Assembly: GCF_000016665.1 (NCBI RefSeq)
Contig: NC_009523.1
Coordinates: forward strand, 4,091,501 to 4,155,500
DNA length: 64,000 nucleotides
Origin: Roseiflexus sp. RS-1
GTDB taxonomy: Bacteria; Chloroflexota; Chloroflexia; Chloroflexales; Roseiflexaceae
Direction of reading: 5' to 3'
A program made the translations under genes and the position numbers. This document shows, one piece after another, positions 10,797-49,932 of this stretch; the stretch's first letter is position 1; the number at the start of each line of letters is the position of its first letter. The notes beneath the pieces were generated by a model. The model did not search any database. It had not been told where the DNA came from and saw only the letters and a program-made list of their open reading frames with translations.

Positions 10797-11625
10797 TAGC
10801 AGTTCTCATAGAGGTTGAACCTCCTCGGACGACCGCAGCACGTGCGGGCTCAAGCCCTCCCTGAGAGCATGGAAGCCCCTGCGGGGCTGGCGTTTCAGGT
10901 ATCCTTGCCATATGCGGGAGAACCTGGGTTGATCCAGCCCGCAGGGCGTGCCCGACCTTAGCCAGGGATTATGGTCTTTAAGTAATGACTCCGCTCTAGC
11001 CCGCGCAGGCGGGCTTTGCATTCCATAGCCGAGGGCTTCAGCCCCACGGCAAGGGCGCATACCGGATTTATTTCTCAATCTCCATAAGCCCTCCCTGAGA
11101 GCATGGAAGCCCCTGCGGGGCTGGCGTTTCAGGTATCCTTGCCATATGCGGGAGAACCTGGGTTGATCCAGCCCGCAGGGCTTGCCCGACCTTAGCCGGG
11201 GATTATGGTCTTTAAGTAATGACTCCGCTCTAGCCCGCGCAGGCGGGCTTTGCATTCCATAGCCGAGGGCTTCAGCCCCACGGCAAGGGCGCATACCGGA
11301 TTTATTTCTCAATCTCCATAAGCCCTCCCTGAGCGCATGGAAGCCCCTGCGGGGCTGGCGTTTCAGGTATCCTTGCCATACGCGAGAGGACTGGGGGAGG
11401 TTGGCGCAGCGCGTCAATCGCAGCCTGCGATCCTTGCCATACGCGAGAGGACTGGGGTTGATCCAGCCCGCAGGGCTTGCCCGACCTCAGCCAGGGATTA
11501 TGGTCTTTGAGTAATGACTCCGCTCTAGCCCGCGCAGGCGGGCTTTGCCCTGACTAGCCGAGGGCTTCAGCCCCACGGCTAGCGCGGCAGAGTGGAAGTA
11601 TTTCTCAATCTCCATCAGCCCGCCG
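10797..11625. repeat. 234-bp tandem repeat, three copies, each containing an inverted MITE-like element
   Basis: Units begin at CCCTCCCTGAG at 10855, 11089 and 11323, an exact 234-bp period. Units 1 and 2 are nearly identical; unit 3 has an internal insertion around CGCGAGAGGACTGGGG. Each unit contains a full MITE-like element in reverse orientation (10971-11085, 11205-11319, 11500-11615), starting ATGGTCTTT and ending AATCTCCAT. Open frames crossing this block are repeat artefacts. Confidence 0.85.
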
Positions 11626-27626: not shown

Positions 27627-29558
27627 TTACCGGAAGATAAACTGCTGCCACCAGTACTCAAGTGGCGGCATAGGCGCCACAATCTTGATCGACTCACCCC
27701 ATGTATACCAGTCGGGTATGACCGTACCGCTCAGGAACAGGCCTATCGCGCCGGTAATTGCGGTCAACGCCGCGAACCACCACGCCCAGATGTGGATGTT
27801 GTACGAGTTGGCGTTCCAGCCCATCACCCAGCGCCAGAAGAGTTGGGCGCGCTGCGTGCCGGGACCTTCCGCCATCATCTCGGTAAACTCCATCTCCGAC
27901 TTCCACTTCGAGGTCGCCACAATCGTCGCCCCGTGCATCGCCAGCAACAGCGTCGATCCGAGCAGGAAGAAGATCGAGAGCATGTGGAAGGGGTTGTAGT
28001 AGAAGTTGCCCCAGTGGATGCTCACATAGTTCGTCCAGTCCAGGATCGCGCGGAAGCCGTGGCCCGGTGCGGCGCTCCAGTTGCCGAGCGCGAGCGGATG
28101 GAACAGATAGATGACGAAGTAGAGCGACAGTGCTGAAGCGAACCCCCAGGCAAGGTGTGTGCCGATGCGCGTGGCTTTTGCGCGTGTATACAGACGCGCC
28201 CACCATGTCAGCACCGAGAGATGCAGGAAGAACGTCGCCGCCAGCCATGCACCGCCCTTGTCCCAGGGCACATTCCAGCTCAGGCCATACTCGGTCGGCG
28301 GGGGATAGACCGCCAGGTTCCAGAACTCACGCAGGTAGATGACTGCATTCCACTCGACCTGACGACCGTAATCCACCAGGATGATAAACGCGCTGGCGAA
28401 GAAGGTGATGAACGAAATCACGCCCCACAGACCGACATAGATCGGACCAACCTGCCCTTCGCCGAGCAGGCGCTGCATCCAGCCAACATGCCCTGGCGGT
28501 TTGGCAATCGTGCCTTCCAGCCCGTCACGGTACTCCTCGTCGCGTAGATCGACCGGCTCCGGCGTCTCGCGGGCACGCCCCAGCACCAACCCGACACCCA
28601 TCAACGCCAGACCCGCCGCCAGTGCCCCCTGACCGATGCCGTTCCAGATCGGCATCCTGTCCCAGAAGCCCCAGAAAGCGTTCCAGTCCTTCACAAACGT
28701 GCCGGACAGGAAGATGCACAGGTTCGAGAACAGCACCGATGCAGCGCCTGTCCAGAACGCGACACGGTGAATACCGATTTCGCCGATGCTATAGCCCAGG
28801 ATATTGCGCCAGAAAACGTGGATGTTCTGGTCGCTGATATTCCGTCGCGCCTCGCTCAGCACTGCCGAACCGTGCATGTGCAGGAACAGCGTCGAGGCGA
28901 AGAGCAGCGTAATACCGATGGCATGGAATGGGTTGTAGAAGAAGTTGTAGTACTGATACCCGATGTTCGACACCCAATCGAGGTGGTGCGTAATGCCGAG
29001 CGGGAAGCCGTGCCCCCAGCCGCCCATCGCAATCGGGCGCAGCCATTGGAGGGTGATCCACGACGACACGACCGCGCCGAATGCAATCGGCACCTCCATG
29101 CCCATATCCAGCTTCAGGCTGATGTCAATCTGGCGCAGCAACCAGCCAATGAAAGCAATGGTCGCTGAAACCATCGTCAGGAACCAGAAGAAGCCGGGCT
29201 TGCCAGGGCTGATATTGAAACCTTCCGAAACCGGCGGCGGCTCGATGCGCATCGCCAGGATGTTGAACGTTCCCTCGTTGACCACACCCTCGTACAGATA
29301 GAACGCGACCCCCAGAACAATACCGACAATCGAGATCGCGCCGAACAGACCGACATAGAAGCGACCGATCCAGAAGTCGAACGGATCGACTCCAAAGAAG
29401 CGCGCCGCAAGGGTCTTACCGGGGCGCTTATAGAACTCCTCGATGATCGAGAACGGAATGACTTCTGCGGATGCTGCCTGCGAGCCTGTGGAGGAAATCG
29501 CCTCAGCGGGGAGAGTCTCTCCACTCGGCAGCGGCAGCGCGCGTGGCACAGCGGACAT
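27627..29558 (-). CDS. pufLM: Fused photosynthetic reaction-centre L and M subunits
   Basis: One 643-residue frame encodes both core subunits of the type II reaction centre. The L part runs to about residue 335 and the M part from about GPIYVGLWGVISF to the C-terminus IFR. A polar linker rich in Glu, Asp and Arg joins them. Each half has the special-pair His (NPFH) and an iron-ligand His (LHMHG in L; LAMHG in M). Twenty residues before the special-pair His the L half has His (HHLDW) but the M half has Ile (RAILDW). That site normally binds an accessory chlorophyll, and its loss fits the three-pheophytin pigment set known for filamentous phototrophs. Fusion of L and M is known in Roseiflexus. 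Confidence 0.97.
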   Translation of the reverse strand: MSAVPRALPLPSGETLPAEAISSTGSQAASAEVIPFSIIEEFYKRPGKTLAARFFGVDPFDFWIGRFYVGLFGAISIVGIVLGVAFYLYEGVVNEGTFNILAMRIEPPPVSEGFNISPGKPGFFWFLTMVSATIAFIGWLLRQIDISLKLDMGMEVPIAFGAVVSSWITLQWLRPIAMGGWGHGFPLGITHHLDWVSNIGYQYYNFFYNPFHAIGITLLFASTLFLHMHGSAVLSEARRNISDQNIHVFWRNILGYSIGEIGIHRVAFWTGAASVLFSNLCIFLSGTFVKDWNAFWGFWDRMPIWNGIGQGALAAGLALMGVGLVLGRARETPEPVDLRDEEYRDGLEGTIAKPPGHVGWMQRLLGEGQVGPIYVGLWGVISFITFFASAFIILVDYGRQVEWNAVIYLREFWNLAVYPPPTEYGLSWNVPWDKGGAWLAATFFLHLSVLTWWARLYTRAKATRIGTHLAWGFASALSLYFVIYLFHPLALGNWSAAPGHGFRAILDWTNYVSIHWGNFYYNPFHMLSIFFLLGSTLLLAMHGATIVATSKWKSEMEFTEMMAEGPGTQRAQLFWRWVMGWNANSYNIHIWAWWFAALTAITGAIGLFLSGTVIPDWYTWGESIKIVAPMPPLEYWWQQFIFR

Positions 29559-29737: not shown

Positions 29738-29860
29738 CTACTTCAGCCAGGGAATGATTGGCGAGCTGAGCACCACAAAGTGGATGAGCAGCGCCATCAC
29801 GAGGCCGATCAGGGTGGAGACCACCACCACTGTCCGGAACTCGAACGGTCGATCTTTCAT
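29738..29860 (-). CDS. pufA: Light-harvesting complex alpha polypeptide
   Basis: A 40-residue single-span antenna polypeptide: [10 protein letters not shown] start, hydrophobic span from about residue 11 to 33, and the bacteriochlorophyll-binding His27 in LLIHFVVL. The sequence is nearly that of the R. castenholzii alpha polypeptide as I know it, with a different C-terminal tail (PIIPWLK). A ribosome site GGAGG lies 7 nt upstream. It lies 21 bp after pufB and 180 bp before pufLM. Confidence 0.95.
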
Positions 29861-29881: not shown

Positions 29882-30070
<189 letters not shown>

Positions 30071-30209: not shown

Positions 30210-30239
30210 ATTATACTCCTGTGAAAGCCAGCGCGTCAA
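30210..30239 (-). promoter_or_regulatory. Candidate puf operon promoter
   Basis: Reading on the minus strand, TTGACG is separated by 18 bp from TATAAT, a good sigma-70-type pair about 160 bp upstream of pufB. Direct TGACA words lie just downstream (30168-30186), in the position expected for a regulator site. Confidence 0.55.
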
Positions 30240-30341
30240 TCAAAATCCCTCACACATCTACTATGCAAGGGTTATGCAGACTGTGTGCAAAAGCCTGAGT
30301 TATGAAGTTGCAACCCTGCGTCAGAGTATGCACTACAGCGT

Positions 30342-30369
30342 TTGACAATCCCTGTGCGTATACTATAAT
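30342..30369 (+). promoter_or_regulatory. Promoter of the MerR/B12 regulator
   Basis: TTGACA and TATAAT separated by 16 bp, both perfect consensus hexamers. Transcription should start near 30376, leaving a leader of about 187 nt before the regulator gene. It diverges from the puf promoter, so both lie within 160 bp. Confidence 0.75.
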
Positions 30370-30375
30370 AAAGCC

Positions 30376-30562
30376 CTACAATCCTAGCCAAAAGGAGGGG
30401 AAGAAGCGAGCAACCTTGCTTCACCCTGCTGCCGGAACTGCCACGTTGCAGGGTGAATACGCGGCGCCGACCGTGTGCGTGGCATTCCTCCCGGGTTTGC
30501 CGCCGGGCAAACCACGTGGTGCGTATGCCGACGCTTGACCGTTCTAGAGATGGAGAACCCCG
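30376..30562 (+). promoter_or_regulatory. Structured 5' leader of the MerR/B12 regulator gene
   Basis: Two strong hairpins are visible: CACCCTGC with GCAGGGTG (8 bp, around 30421-30454), and GGTTTGCC with GGCAAACC (8 bp, around 30494-30513), the latter enclosed by GCGTGGCAT pairing with ATGCCGACGC with one bulge. An SD-like AAGGAGG occurs early in the leader. I do not recognise a known riboswitch class and see no clear B12-box. Confidence 0.45.
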
Positions 30563-31570
30563 ATGTTGGAGCAGGTCCATCACCTGCTGACGCTGTCAGA
30601 CGTGCCACGCTACAATATCAAGGCAGTCGTTCAGCAGACCCAGGTCAATGTTTCGACACTACGCGCATGGGAGCAACGCTACGGCGTTCCGCGCCCGACT
30701 CGCTCCGATCACGGTCATCGGCTCTATTCGCAGCGCGATATCGAGATCATTAAGTGGCTGAAGCAGTGTACCGAGGAGGGACTGGCGATCAGTCAGGCGG
30801 TCGCACTGTTGCGCGACATCAGCGACTCAGGTAATGCTACTCCTCGCGCGCCGCAATCGCAGCCGCCTCCGCCAACACTGGCGGACGCCGGATGGCCCGA
30901 TCTGCGCACACAATTGACCGAGGCGCTCCTCAGCACGAACCTGCGCCAGGCGCATTTGCTTGTCAATACCGCCGTGGCCCTCTTCCCTATCGAGACGCTG
31001 GTGCTCGATCTTTTTTATCCCATGCTGGTCGATATTGGCGAGCGCTGGGCGCAGGGGGATGTGTGCGTGGCAGAGGAGCGGGTGGTGACCAACTTCGTGC
31101 GCCAGCGCCTGCTCGGGTTGTTGCAGATCCACGCGCCGTTCGCCATCGGTCCGCGTCTGATCGCCGGGTGCGCGCCTGAAGAACAGCACGAGATCGGGTT
31201 GATTATGTTCTCGCTGCTGATGGAACAACGCGGCTGGGAACTGATCTACCTGGGGCAAACCGTGTCGGCGGAAGGACTTGATGGCTTCCTGATGCGCATG
31301 GCGCCGGCGCTTGTGTGTATGTCGGTGTCGATGGCGGAGCATGTGCCCGGTCTGCTCGAAATTGCCCGGATTGTCGAAGGTCGCCGTCGCCATCGCCTGG
31401 TGTTCGCCTATAGCGGTCAGGTGTTTGATCGCCATCCTGAGCTTCGCGGTCGCATTCCCGGTATCTTTCTCGGCAATGACCTGCGCGAAGCGGTTATCCG
31501 GGCGGATGATCTCGGTGAAGAGATCGATCCAGAACGCTGGATGCGACAGTCGCACTTCTTTCGCCATTGA
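30563..31570 (+). CDS. MerR-type regulator with cobalamin-binding domain
   Basis: A 335-residue protein. The N-terminal MerR helix-turn-helix is YNIKAVVQQTQVNVSTLRAWEQRYGVPRP and continues to about residue 85. After a proline-rich linker comes a B12-binding helical domain and a Rossmann-like B12 domain containing Glu207-x-His209-x-x-Gly212, the base-off cobalamin motif. In the CarH photoreceptor motif W-x9-EH, Trp162 and Glu172 are kept, but Arg173 replaces His and Ala163 follows Trp where CarH has His132. The protein should bind cobalamin but with an altered upper face. It is divergent from puf, so it is likely to control photosynthesis genes. Ribosome site GGAG, 7 nt upstream. Confidence 0.85.
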   Translation: MLEQVHHLLTLSDVPRYNIKAVVQQTQVNVSTLRAWEQRYGVPRPTRSDHGHRLYSQRDIEIIKWLKQCTEEGLAISQAVALLRDISDSGNATPRAPQSQPPPPTLADAGWPDLRTQLTEALLSTNLRQAHLLVNTAVALFPIETLVLDLFYPMLVDIGERWAQGDVCVAEERVVTNFVRQRLLGLLQIHAPFAIGPRLIAGCAPEEQHEIGLIMFSLLMEQRGWELIYLGQTVSAEGLDGFLMRMAPALVCMSVSMAEHVPGLLEIARIVEGRRRHRLVFAYSGQVFDRHPELRGRIPGIFLGNDLREAVIRADDLGEEIDPERWMRQSHFFRH

Positions 31571-31676: not shown

Positions 31677-32120
31677 ATGCGCTCATTGACGACGTGGCTG
31701 AGCAGTCGTGGACCGGAGATCGCCCAGGCGCTCGATCAACGCCGCGAGGCGATCTGTTCTGCGGTCAATCATCGCCTCATGTCAACGTTCGCAGGATTGC
31801 TGGCGGATATCGAATCGCGCCACGGCAGTCAGTATCATCAGGTGACATTCAGTCGCACACCCCGACGGCTCCATCAACTGGTGCTGGTGGCGCTCGCGCT
31901 GCAGGCGCCGTCGGTGCTGCAACGTGAGATTGAGTGGAGCGTTCGCCTGTTGCTGCGGTACGGCGTGACGCAGCATCACATTCAGTCGATGGTGCGCTGG
32001 TACTTCGAAGCGGTGCGACGCGAAGTGGCGCTCGATGATCACGACCGCGATAACCTGGCGGCGCTCGAAGAGGCGATCCTGGCGACCATCTACGCGATTG
32101 GGGAAGAAACTGAGCCGTAA
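31677..32120 (+). CDS. Unrecognised all-helical protein downstream of the MerR/B12 regulator
   Basis: A 147-residue protein, predicted helical throughout and without membrane spans or cysteines in motifs. Features include SRTPRRLHQLVLVALALQAP and RYGVTQHHIQSMVRWYFEAV. The His-rich centre and overall helical layout are faintly like a globin-type or RsbR N-terminal sensor domain, but I would not assign it. It lies 106 bp downstream of the regulator on the same strand. Codon use matches neighbours, so it is probably real. Confidence 0.6.
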   Translation: MRSLTTWLSSRGPEIAQALDQRREAICSAVNHRLMSTFAGLLADIESRHGSQYHQVTFSRTPRRLHQLVLVALALQAPSVLQREIEWSVRLLLRYGVTQHHIQSMVRWYFEAVRREVALDDHDRDNLAALEEAILATIYAIGEETEP

Positions 32121-33220: not shown

Positions 33221-33685
33221 TCAAGATTCGTTTTGATTTTTGGACTGCTTTTTGCGTTTCAGCCAAATTCGGAAGTTATGCAGCCCGCAACATGTTTCCA
33301 TGACCATATCCCGAAATTCGGAACAACTGAAGCGGATAATGTCGTGAATGATTCGATACCGCTTGATATCGCCGATAACATGTTCAATACGAACGCGAAC
33401 GGATGAGATACGCCGGTTTTCCTCCTTTTCCTGCGGCGTGAGGGTTCCATTGCGCGGCTTCTTCTTTGGCTGCATAATCTGGACGCCAGGCAGGGTAAAT
33501 CCTTGAAATCCGGCGTCTTGATAGAGAATGCTCGCGTTTGGAAGGGTGTATCCCGCTTCATCCGCAATACATTTATCGTGGACCCTTCCTTCGTAGGTGT
33601 CACTCAAAAAGTGAATAGAGCCAAACTCATCAATGATGAGAACGTTCTTAAGCGTATGTCGTTTCTTCTTACCGCTGTAATACAA
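33221..33685 (-). CDS. IS5-family transposase, C-terminal (catalytic) part
   Basis: The downstream half of a DDE transposase: YYSGKKKRHTLKN, then LIIDEF with an Asp, DAGFQGF near the second acidic residue, and RIEHVIGDIKRYR containing the final Glu. In sequence the frame actually continues upstream to about 33750 (LFIHDGVERPIRRPSDKVDREL), beyond the only ATG shown. The N-terminal part is in another frame; joining them needs one -1 shift at the CCCCCCTTTTT run near 33746-33756. Confidence 0.8.
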   Translation of the reverse strand: MYYSGKKKRHTLKNVLIIDEFGSIHFLSDTYEGRVHDKCIADEAGYTLPNASILYQDAGFQGFTLPGVQIMQPKKKPRNGTLTPQEKEENRRISSVRVRIEHVIGDIKRYRIIHDIIRFSCSEFRDMVMETCCGLHNFRIWLKRKKQSKNQNES

Positions 33686-33726
33686 CTCCCGGTCGACTTT
33701 GTCGCTTGGACGGCGAATGGGACGTT

Positions 33727-34278
33727 CTACGCCGTCATGGATAAAAAGGGGGGCGCTTTTGTCGCATGCGACGGTTCTTCACACGACGGTTCTTCACACG
33801 ACGGTTCTTCACACGACGGTTCTTCACACGACGGTTCTTCACACGACGGTTCTTCACACGACGGTTCTTCACACGACGGTTCTTCCTGCAATCGCCTCGC
33901 CAGGTCGTCGGCAGTGCGCGCAGGCAGGAGATTTTGCTGTGAAAGCGCATAGTTCAGCGCTCCGTGCAAAAGATGCACCCATTTGCTTACGTTTGATTGG
34001 CTCATTTGAAAGAGGTGTCCGTGCATCACTTGCGTTGGGTTTTGTTTTAAGTAGGTCAAAATAAAGAGCAATTTATCTTCTGTTGTCGGAAGCGGCGAGT
34101 TTGCATACGAGACGTAGCGACGACAATATCGGACGCGGCCATCAATCGTGCGACGTTTCATATACGCTTCAAATGCGGCGTGGAAGATCGGAACCAGCGC
34201 GTGGAACTCTTCAACGGTCAGTCCGGTCATAGAGCGTAATTTCTCCGGATTTTCGATAATGGATCGATACTTACACAT
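33727..34278 (-). CDS. IS5-family transposase, N-terminal part with repeat insertion
   Basis: The upstream half: MTGLTVEEFHALVPIFHAAFEAY and a helix-turn-helix MSQSNVSKWVHLL. It is joined to eight EEPS(C/H) units encoded by the 15-bp tandem repeat, then ends MTA-stop shortly after the CCCCCCTTTTT run. Transposases of this family do not normally carry such repeats; this copy is presumably altered and may be inactive unless frameshifting rescues it. Confidence 0.8.
   Translation of the reverse strand: MCKYRSIIENPEKLRSMTGLTVEEFHALVPIFHAAFEAYMKRRTIDGRVRYCRRYVSYANSPLPTTEDKLLFILTYLKQNPTQVMHGHLFQMSQSNVSKWVHLLHGALNYALSQQNLLPARTADDLARRLQEEPSCEEPSCEEPSCEEPSCEEPSCEEPSCEEPSCEEPSHATKAPPFLSMTA
33770..33885. 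repeat. 15-bp tandem repeat inside the transposase
   Basis: Eight units of GACGGTTCTTCACAC, perfectly conserved apart from the outer edges; reading on the minus strand it encodes EEPSC repeats. It has no spacer variation. Confidence 0.95.
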
Positions 34279-34337: not shown

Positions 34338-34912
34338 TACTGAGAACTAAGAACTGAGAATTGAGAGCAAGGAACTTTTCGCTTACAGCATTTTCAGATA
34401 TGTTGACCATCGTTCGCGTCTACAATGTCGCACGAGGCGCATGCTTCCGGCGGAGTGTAGACCGAAATTATAGAGATTGAGAATTTAATCCGGTATGCGC
34501 TCTTGCCGTCGGGCTAAAGCCCTCGGCTATCCAGGGCGAAGCCCGCCTGCGCGGGCTATACCGGATTATTTCTTCAAAGACCATAAGCCCTCGGCTATCC
34601 AGGGCGAAGCCCGCCTGCGCGGGCTATACCGGATTATTTCTTCAAAGACCATCATTTCGGTCGTCTCTCGCAGGTCGCCACTTGTAGACCGAAATCCACT
34701 GCGGCCGCCGCTCGTAGACCGAAATCCATTTCGGGCGCCGCGTAGGAAGCGCACTATTGATCGCGGGTCGTCCGAGGAGGTTCAACAAGCCCTCGGCTAC
34801 GTGGCGCAACGCTCGCCTGCGCGAGCCAGACCGGGTTTAATTCTTTGAGACTCATAATTTGTACTTCTATCGCAGACCGCAGCGGCAGGCGCTTCGCTCC
34901 GGGAGCATACGC
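34338..34912. repeat. Right half of heptamer array and MITE-like elements
   Basis: After the IS, the GAGAACTGAGAA array continues to about 34365. Then comes a MITE-like pair (hairpin cores at 34540 and 34608, 68-bp period) and a decayed third unit near 34790-34860. No gene is visible. The block ends just before the alpha-E gene's stop codon. Confidence 0.75.
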
Positions 34913-49816: not shown

Positions 49817-49932
49817 ATGGAGATTGAGAAATAAATCCGCTATCCCGCGCTAGCCGTGGGGCTGAAGCCCTCGGCTAGGCAAGGCGAAGCCCGCCTGCGC
49901 GGGCTATAGCGGAATAATTACTCAAAGACCAT
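49817..49932. repeat. Complete MITE-like element
   Basis: The best single copy of the window's most common repeat: 116 bp, ends ATGGAGATTGAG...CTCAAAGACCAT, about 27-bp imperfect terminal inverted repeats, and an internal 7-bp stem AGCCCGC/GCGGGCT. It has no coding capacity. Confidence 0.85.

Follow-up and report, generated by a model that had tools for sequence, protein, structure and literature searches.

The puf genes of Roseiflexus sp. RS-1 lie divergent to a gene encoding a B12-type regulator, which raises the question of whether this protein controls them and, if so, by what mechanism. To our knowledge, no regulator of photosynthesis genes has been described in Chloroflexota, and a literature search for a Roseiflexus puf regulator or a Roseiflexus CarH, with most subscription papers outside its coverage, found none. 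The analysis centers on a stretch of 64,000 nucleotides (the window) of this genome, which is a single contig of 5,801,598 bp. We refer to the puf-linked protein as regulator A and to its canonical paralogue in the same genome as B; the features of the locus are collected in Table 1.

Table 1. Features of the regulator A–puf locus and of two related loci (window positions unless indicated otherwise)
Feature	Position	Strand	Remarks
pufLM, fused reaction-centre subunits	27627-29558	-	two PF00124 domains in one open frame
pufA, light-harvesting alpha subunit (candidate)	29738-29860	-	40-aa frame; conserved between pufB and pufLM
pufB, light-harvesting beta subunit	29882-30052	-	PF00556 match; start at 30052
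puf promoter	30210-30239	-	TTGACG-18-TATAAT; 11/12 consensus match; nearest repeat starts 17 bp upstream of -35
CarH-type operator (putative)	30251-30289	+	CACACA, TATGCA, TATGCA, TGTGCA; 11-bp period (N5 between units); first unit degenerate
Regulator A promoter	30342-30369	+	TTGACA-16-TATAAT; 12/12 consensus match; conserved in six Roseiflexus-type loci
Regulator A gene	30563-31570	+	ATG start, 335 aa; MerR HTH, four-helix B12-binding_2, Rossmann B12-binding
Trp162 and Ala163 codons (CarH Trp131, His132)	31046-31051	+	alignment
Glu172 and Arg173 codons (CarH Glu141, His142)	31076-31081	+	alignment
His209 codon (CarH His177)	31187-31189	+	expected lower axial cobalt ligand; invariant in clade A
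Ser235 codon	31265-31267	+	at place of GxxxP light-signature Pro; never Pro in clade A
orf147	31677-32120	+	147 aa; downstream of A; predicted phycobiliprotein/globin-like fold
Paralogue B	genome 2608473-2609357		canonical CarH residues
MFS transporter and CbiX locus	L101 1633-3982 (G000:C1:5614432-5616781)		

Regulator A and its canonical paralogue

Regulator A has the domain order of CarH-type photoreceptors, with Pfam matches to MerR HTH (5.9e-15), B12-binding_2 (2.3e-8) and B12-binding (1.7e-8), and it ends after the Rossmann domain without a fused globin domain. The best match of its predicted structure is TtCarH, and the alignment to that protein runs from the HTH into the B12 domain. 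It equates Trp131, His132, Glu141 and His142 of TtCarH with Trp162, Ala163, Glu172 and Arg173, and His177 and Gly180 with His209 and Gly212. The original prediction, that the Trp and Glu of the upper face are kept while both histidines are replaced, is therefore exact. Since the lower-ligand motif E/DxHxxG is also present, as the prediction had stated (E207-x-H209-x-x-G212), regulator A likely binds cobalamin in the base-off form. The W-x9-EH motif is not matched, W-x9-ER standing in its place. Because His132 is needed for the CarH-type bis-His photoproduct, its absence supports the earlier statement that this product cannot form in the usual way. Of the published light signature (GxxW, EH, GxxH and GxxxP; PMC11796333), only GxxW is present. 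The G of GxxH is replaced by E206, a residue position at which many B sequences also lack the glycine, and the proline of GxxxP is replaced by Ser235, a change that the original prediction overlooked and that is the loss common to all orthologues. The interval of that prediction begins at 30376, close to the transcription start expected after the perfect promoter of the regulator A gene, and includes a leader of ∼185 nt before the open reading frame. A riboswitch in this leader was considered and dropped, as Rfam gave no match at E ≤ 5.

To place these changes, 158 genomes of the class were searched, and homologues were found in 120 of them. Most Roseiflexaceae genomes encode both paralogues. 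In a maximum likelihood tree, the orthologues of regulator A form a clade with 100% support that is separate from B and includes one Herpetosiphonaceae MAG (clade A). All 18 B sequences examined retain W, H132, E, H142, H177 and the GxxxP proline, and in Chloroflexus B adjoins phytoene synthase, as expected for a true CarH. Among 20 aligned clade A orthologues, the equivalents of Trp162, His209 and Gly212 are invariant. The site of the GxxxP proline is occupied by S, T, E, A, G or L and never by Pro. Position 163 is A, I, V, M or L, with His in none of the 20, so that the case named in the prediction as speaking against it, homologues that all keep the histidine, is not what we find. Of the two replacements whose conservation it proposed to check, position 163 is non-His throughout the clade, whereas Arg173 is confined: the EH histidine site is Arg in Roseiflexus, one sister genus and the L067 copy, and His or Gln elsewhere. 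EH reads ER, EQ or VQ in many members, while the Glu is retained in most.

Loss of His132 as the hallmark of clade A was rejected, because it is widespread in homologues that show no linkage to puf. Other Chloroflexia homologues carry A, V, M or E at this position and those from Anaerolineae mostly Y, in both cases with EH and the proline retained. Published CarH-type photoreceptors function with Arg, Gln or Tyr in place of His132. One of them, CtMerR of Chloracidobacterium thermophilum, has Arg there, yet its tetramers still dissociate into monomers in light (PMC11796333), so the absence of His132 alone does not equal a loss of light sensing. The engineered H132A variant of TtCarH binds AdoCbl in the dark and remains mostly tetrameric after light, although the same study mentions an earlier report of its disassembly (PMC10442372). 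Position 163 is thus the least informative of the residue changes in regulator A. Judged from the alignment, clade A is instead marked by the loss of the GxxxP proline together with drift of the EH histidine. Of the altered light-sensing face proposed originally, the changed residues stand, whereas Ala163 is no peculiarity of this protein.

Linkage to puf and the operator array

Regulator A is present in 20 genomes of Roseiflexaceae, 19 of which have a reaction-centre match above the cut-off; in the twentieth, G066, the gene lies at a contig end. The divergence from puf noted in the original prediction proved to be conserved: in 17 genomes (16 Roseiflexaceae and one Herpetosiphonaceae), regulator A and pufB share a contig and are transcribed divergently, with a matching operator between them. 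Exceptions are found in genus g3 (G058 and G059), where regulator A is located away from puf; G075, with the two on separate contigs, was left out of this judgement. Three puf-bearing genomes, the complete G057 and the incomplete G062 and G080, gave no detectable regulator A, and three Roseiflexaceae genomes have neither puf nor regulator A. Chloroflexaceae have puf and B and lack regulator A. Additional A-type genes remote from puf are present at L067 (G060) and L078 (G058), and the copy at L078 retains an orf147 neighbor of its own.

CarH operators consist of tandem 11-bp repeats (nnnnTnnACAn), and a published search also admitted an RCR-type repeat (PMC9304148). Tandem 11-bp direct repeats of this kind are present between regulator A and puf in the relaxed form TnnRCA, where the R position is the relaxation. 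Within the window, the pattern of three perfect units occurs only here, against 0.07 expected matches; the motif was derived from this window before it was tested elsewhere. At all 17 A-linked puf promoters, in Roseiflexaceae as well as the one other family, the nearest repeat begins 16 or 17 bp upstream of the –35 region, and 12-16 of the 16 defining bases are found at that distance. In contrast, the 11 Chloroflexaceae puf promoters examined show only 2-10 of 16 at those distances and have no array. Shuffling gave p ≤ 0.005 for each A-linked promoter and 2e-4, the limit of the test, for most of them, values that are not independent since the promoters are related. Together with the expectation for the window, this led us to reject a chance origin of the array at puf. 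Divergence of the surrounding DNA has not removed the array from A-linked puf promoters, and it stays at puf where the intergenic region measures 1.2 kb as well as in G059, where regulator A has moved. For this reason, an array serving only the promoter of regulator A itself is unlikely. In G057, where no regulator A was detected, the puf locus (L079) shows part of an 11-bp array in the corresponding position upstream of the puf –35 region.

The promoters themselves also differ between the two families. All 11 Chloroflexaceae puf promoters read TTGACA-17-TATAAT, while those bearing the array are mostly of the form TTGAC(G/T/C)-18-TATAAT: the last base of the –35 region is off consensus in 14/17, and the spacer is 18 bp in 15/17. 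B genes are preceded by TGTGCA-N5-TTGACA-N5-TGTGC(A/G), or a sequence close to it, in 15 of 18 cases, so that the –35 region forms one of the repeats. Such a repressor layout, with the operator over the –35 or –10 region, is not seen at puf, although the B genes do show this overlap. By their sequences, two CarH-type layouts thus exist in one genome, with repeats that cover the promoter in one case and precede it in the other. An upstream array beside a weaker promoter points to activation; an upstream site can, however, also repress.

Further candidate targets were sought among arrays elsewhere in the genome. A genome-wide count of strict arrays shows no enrichment against a reversed-pattern control (7 vs 4), and we therefore do not claim the isolated sites at 260452, 786103 and 4493185 as targets. 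Methylmalonyl-CoA mutase is a B12 enzyme, and the first of these sites, a perfect three-unit array in promoter-like sequence (L096 3953-3980; G000:C1:260452-260479), lies beside its divergent gene; in the other five Roseiflexus genomes the strict pattern was not found there. A strict array precedes the alternative-complex-III operon, identified by a pentaheme-type cytochrome followed by a large iron-sulfur subunit, in five of six Roseiflexus genomes. Upstream of pucC, two of the six have a strict array and three more a partial one at the same place (10-11/12). These two sites are photosynthesis-related. Not so classed is an array that precedes an MFS transporter gene and a CbiX-type chelatase gene in all six genomes; because its –35 region lies inside the array, it resembles the B layout and is likely, on this geometry, a target of B.

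Other repeated sequences of the window include Rfam CRISPR-DR28 matches in ones to threes (1873-2032, 10997-11549, 34535-34626 and 49883-49906), and similar peptide stretches (KPSASQGEARLRGL) occur in spurious ORFs; this suggests a dispersed short repeat rather than CRISPR arrays. A transposase-like gene at 33221-34278 is broken into two ORFs, and an in-frame series of about eight EEPSC repeats lies close to the break; a similar ORF pair is present at L097 4949-6006.

The downstream gene orf147

Apart from L077 and L039, all loci whose sequence extends far enough have the gene orf147 after regulator A in the same orientation, with gaps of 36-172 nt in the eight loci measured. Its AlphaFold2 model is helical and confident (pLDDT 84), and the top PDB matches by Foldseek are smURFP and allophycocyanins, with TM scores of about 0.7-0.8 and an E value of only 5e-3. 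A profile search of PDB sequences returned no match. In Chloroflexaceae-type genomes, the gene for a B12-domain protein of different build (GAF and CBD, with a weak DICT match) in several cases precedes that for a helical repeat protein of ∼360 aa, which no Pfam family covers. The first repeat of the latter is collinear with orf147 in a weak profile match (P 0.0025-0.0036), and this protein may be globin-like. The B12-domain protein itself belongs to a third CBD family, which combines GAF with a canonical WH/EH B12 domain in about 700-780 aa (L176-L185, e.g. L185 43-3552 and L184 903-4097).

B12 domains are known to be linked with bilin-binding globins in photocobilins and BBAG-2 globins (PMC10979010, PMC10151467). 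A bilin role of orf147 is nevertheless doubtful, because searches for PF01126 heme oxygenase and the phytochrome PHY domain found neither in this genome, and PF01126 occurs in no more than 3 of the 26 family genomes, with regulator A present in two of these three. What is observed is the pairing of the two genes. Given the lack of a PDB sequence match, the weak profile match and the missing PF01126, we do not claim orf147 as a proven photoglobin.

How regulator A could act on puf

Based on these observations, we consider regulator A a strong candidate for a switch of photosynthesis genes in phototrophic Roseiflexaceae. The reading we favor, at about an even chance of being right, is that of a puf-dedicated CarH paralogue with an upstream array, a probable activator whose coupling to B12 or light has changed. 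The MerR domain would bind the array, and regulator A would thereby control the puf(-bchG-bchP) operon. Canonical CarH promoters have the operator over the –35 region, whereas here the array is placed shortly before it; judged by this geometry, the most likely effect would be activation, in which the protein would aid RNA polymerase at a promoter with an 18-bp spacer and an off-consensus –35 region. We expect base-off cobalamin to be bound by regulator A via His209. Since the adenosyl-side and dimer contacts have changed (no His132, the proline lost, the EH histidine drifting), light or the form of cobalamin would act by other means than a bis-His switch, and orf147 would probably modulate the protein. 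As originally suggested, light, oxygen or B12 supply may in this way reach the photosynthesis genes. The divergence in 17 genomes and the array at 17 promoters but none in the 11 Chloroflexaceae speak for the favored reading, as do the persistence of the array at puf, the different layout at B genes and the arrays before alternative complex III and pucC; the partial array of G057 without a detected regulator A, the lack of genome-wide enrichment, the displaced gene in genus g3 and a possible binding of B to similar half-sites speak against it.

Comparison with known systems bears on how far the mechanism may have departed from that of CarH. Regulator A shares with CarH/LitR proteins (TtCarH, PDB 5C8D-F, 3WHP) the domain order, the lower-ligand His, the stacking Trp and an operator of 11-bp direct repeats. 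It differs in lacking a His132 equivalent, in reading ER for EH, in the lost GxxxP proline, in an array upstream of rather than over the –35 region, and in its location beside puf instead of carotenoid genes. It might still be an AdoCbl photoreceptor that differs from CarH in the photoproduct only, with a dark form that binds the array and is released when light breaks the Co–C bond. This would be compatible with activation as well as repression of puf, and it agrees with the invariant Trp and lower His and with the Glu of EH kept in most of the clade. Its model would be CtMerR (PDB 8JBS/8JBT), likewise a MerR-B12 regulator of a phototroph without His at 132 and responsive to light. However, CtMerR keeps the full set of GxxW, EH, GxxH and GxxxP, of which regulator A keeps GxxW only; no clade A member has kept the proline, an adenosyl-side contact across the dimer, EH has become ER, EQ or VQ in many members, and H132A TtCarH stays mostly tetrameric after light. 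We regard this photoreceptor as possible but rather unlikely. The diverged upper face and the conserved partner gene would also fit a cobalamin-independent regulator set by orf147, with a mainly structural B12 domain. A precedent is CarA of Myxococcus xanthus, a B12-independent CarH paralogue governed by its partner CarS (PMC9304148) and encoded, like regulator A, by a genome that has a canonical CarH as well. CarA represses carotenoid genes from an operator that includes the –35 region, whereas the array at puf lies upstream, and the invariance of His209 and Gly212 would be unexpected if cobalamin were not used, which makes this explanation unlikely.

Two further proposals, both of which we consider improbable, give a larger part to another protein. 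The half-sites of regulator A and B both fit TnnRCA, CarH proteins tolerate varied operators (PMC9304148), and G057 combines a partial array with B only; B could thus bind half-sites similar to those at puf and be the main protein on the array, with regulator A as a mere neighbor or modulator. Yet Chloroflexaceae have B and no array at puf, most genomes show physical linkage between regulator A and the array, and the B operators differ in geometry. Alternatively, regulator A and orf147 could be a split relative of photocobilins, with which they share the pairing of a B12 domain and a (predicted) phycobiliprotein/globin-like protein and the non-His residue at 132; a tetrapyrrole on orf147, bilin or other, and cobalamin on regulator A would then set puf expression. 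The resemblance of the orf147 model to smURFP and allophycocyanin and the known B12–bilin pairing in fused photocobilins and BBAG-2 neighborhoods favor this idea. Photocobilins are, however, fusions of the two domains, while here the genes are separate, and the modest Foldseek E value, the empty PDB profile search, the weak comparison with the Chloroflexaceae globin-like proteins and the absence of PF01126 and PHY from the genome argue against it. Its most extended version, in which the pair is a light- or tetrapyrrole-responsive activator of puf and, via the further arrays, of alternative complex III and pucC, is very improbable; if it were true, a CarH fold would have been turned from a repressor into an activator.

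Returning to the favored puf-dedicated paralogue, its way of working may, by analogy, resemble that of AerR/PpaA of purple bacteria, a B12-domain regulator of photosystem genes that is also encoded in a photosynthesis gene region. AerR acts via a separate DNA-binding protein, CrtJ/PpsR. It has no DNA-binding domain of its own, unlike regulator A with its MerR HTH, which is thus not a member of that family.

What is new here is the conserved divergence of regulator A and pufB, the CarH-family operator upstream of the puf –35 region and the conserved orf147 with its predicted globin-like fold. For the switching of puf in filamentous anoxygenic phototrophs of the Chloroflexota, regulator A supplies a named candidate, a precise operator and a promoter geometry. 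The canonical paralogue B, which the same genome encodes together with an operator that overlaps its promoter, provides an internal control that makes the question directly testable. If the proposed role is true, regulator A would be a natural CarH-type protein that has lost the light-responsive contacts yet kept the cobalamin ligand.
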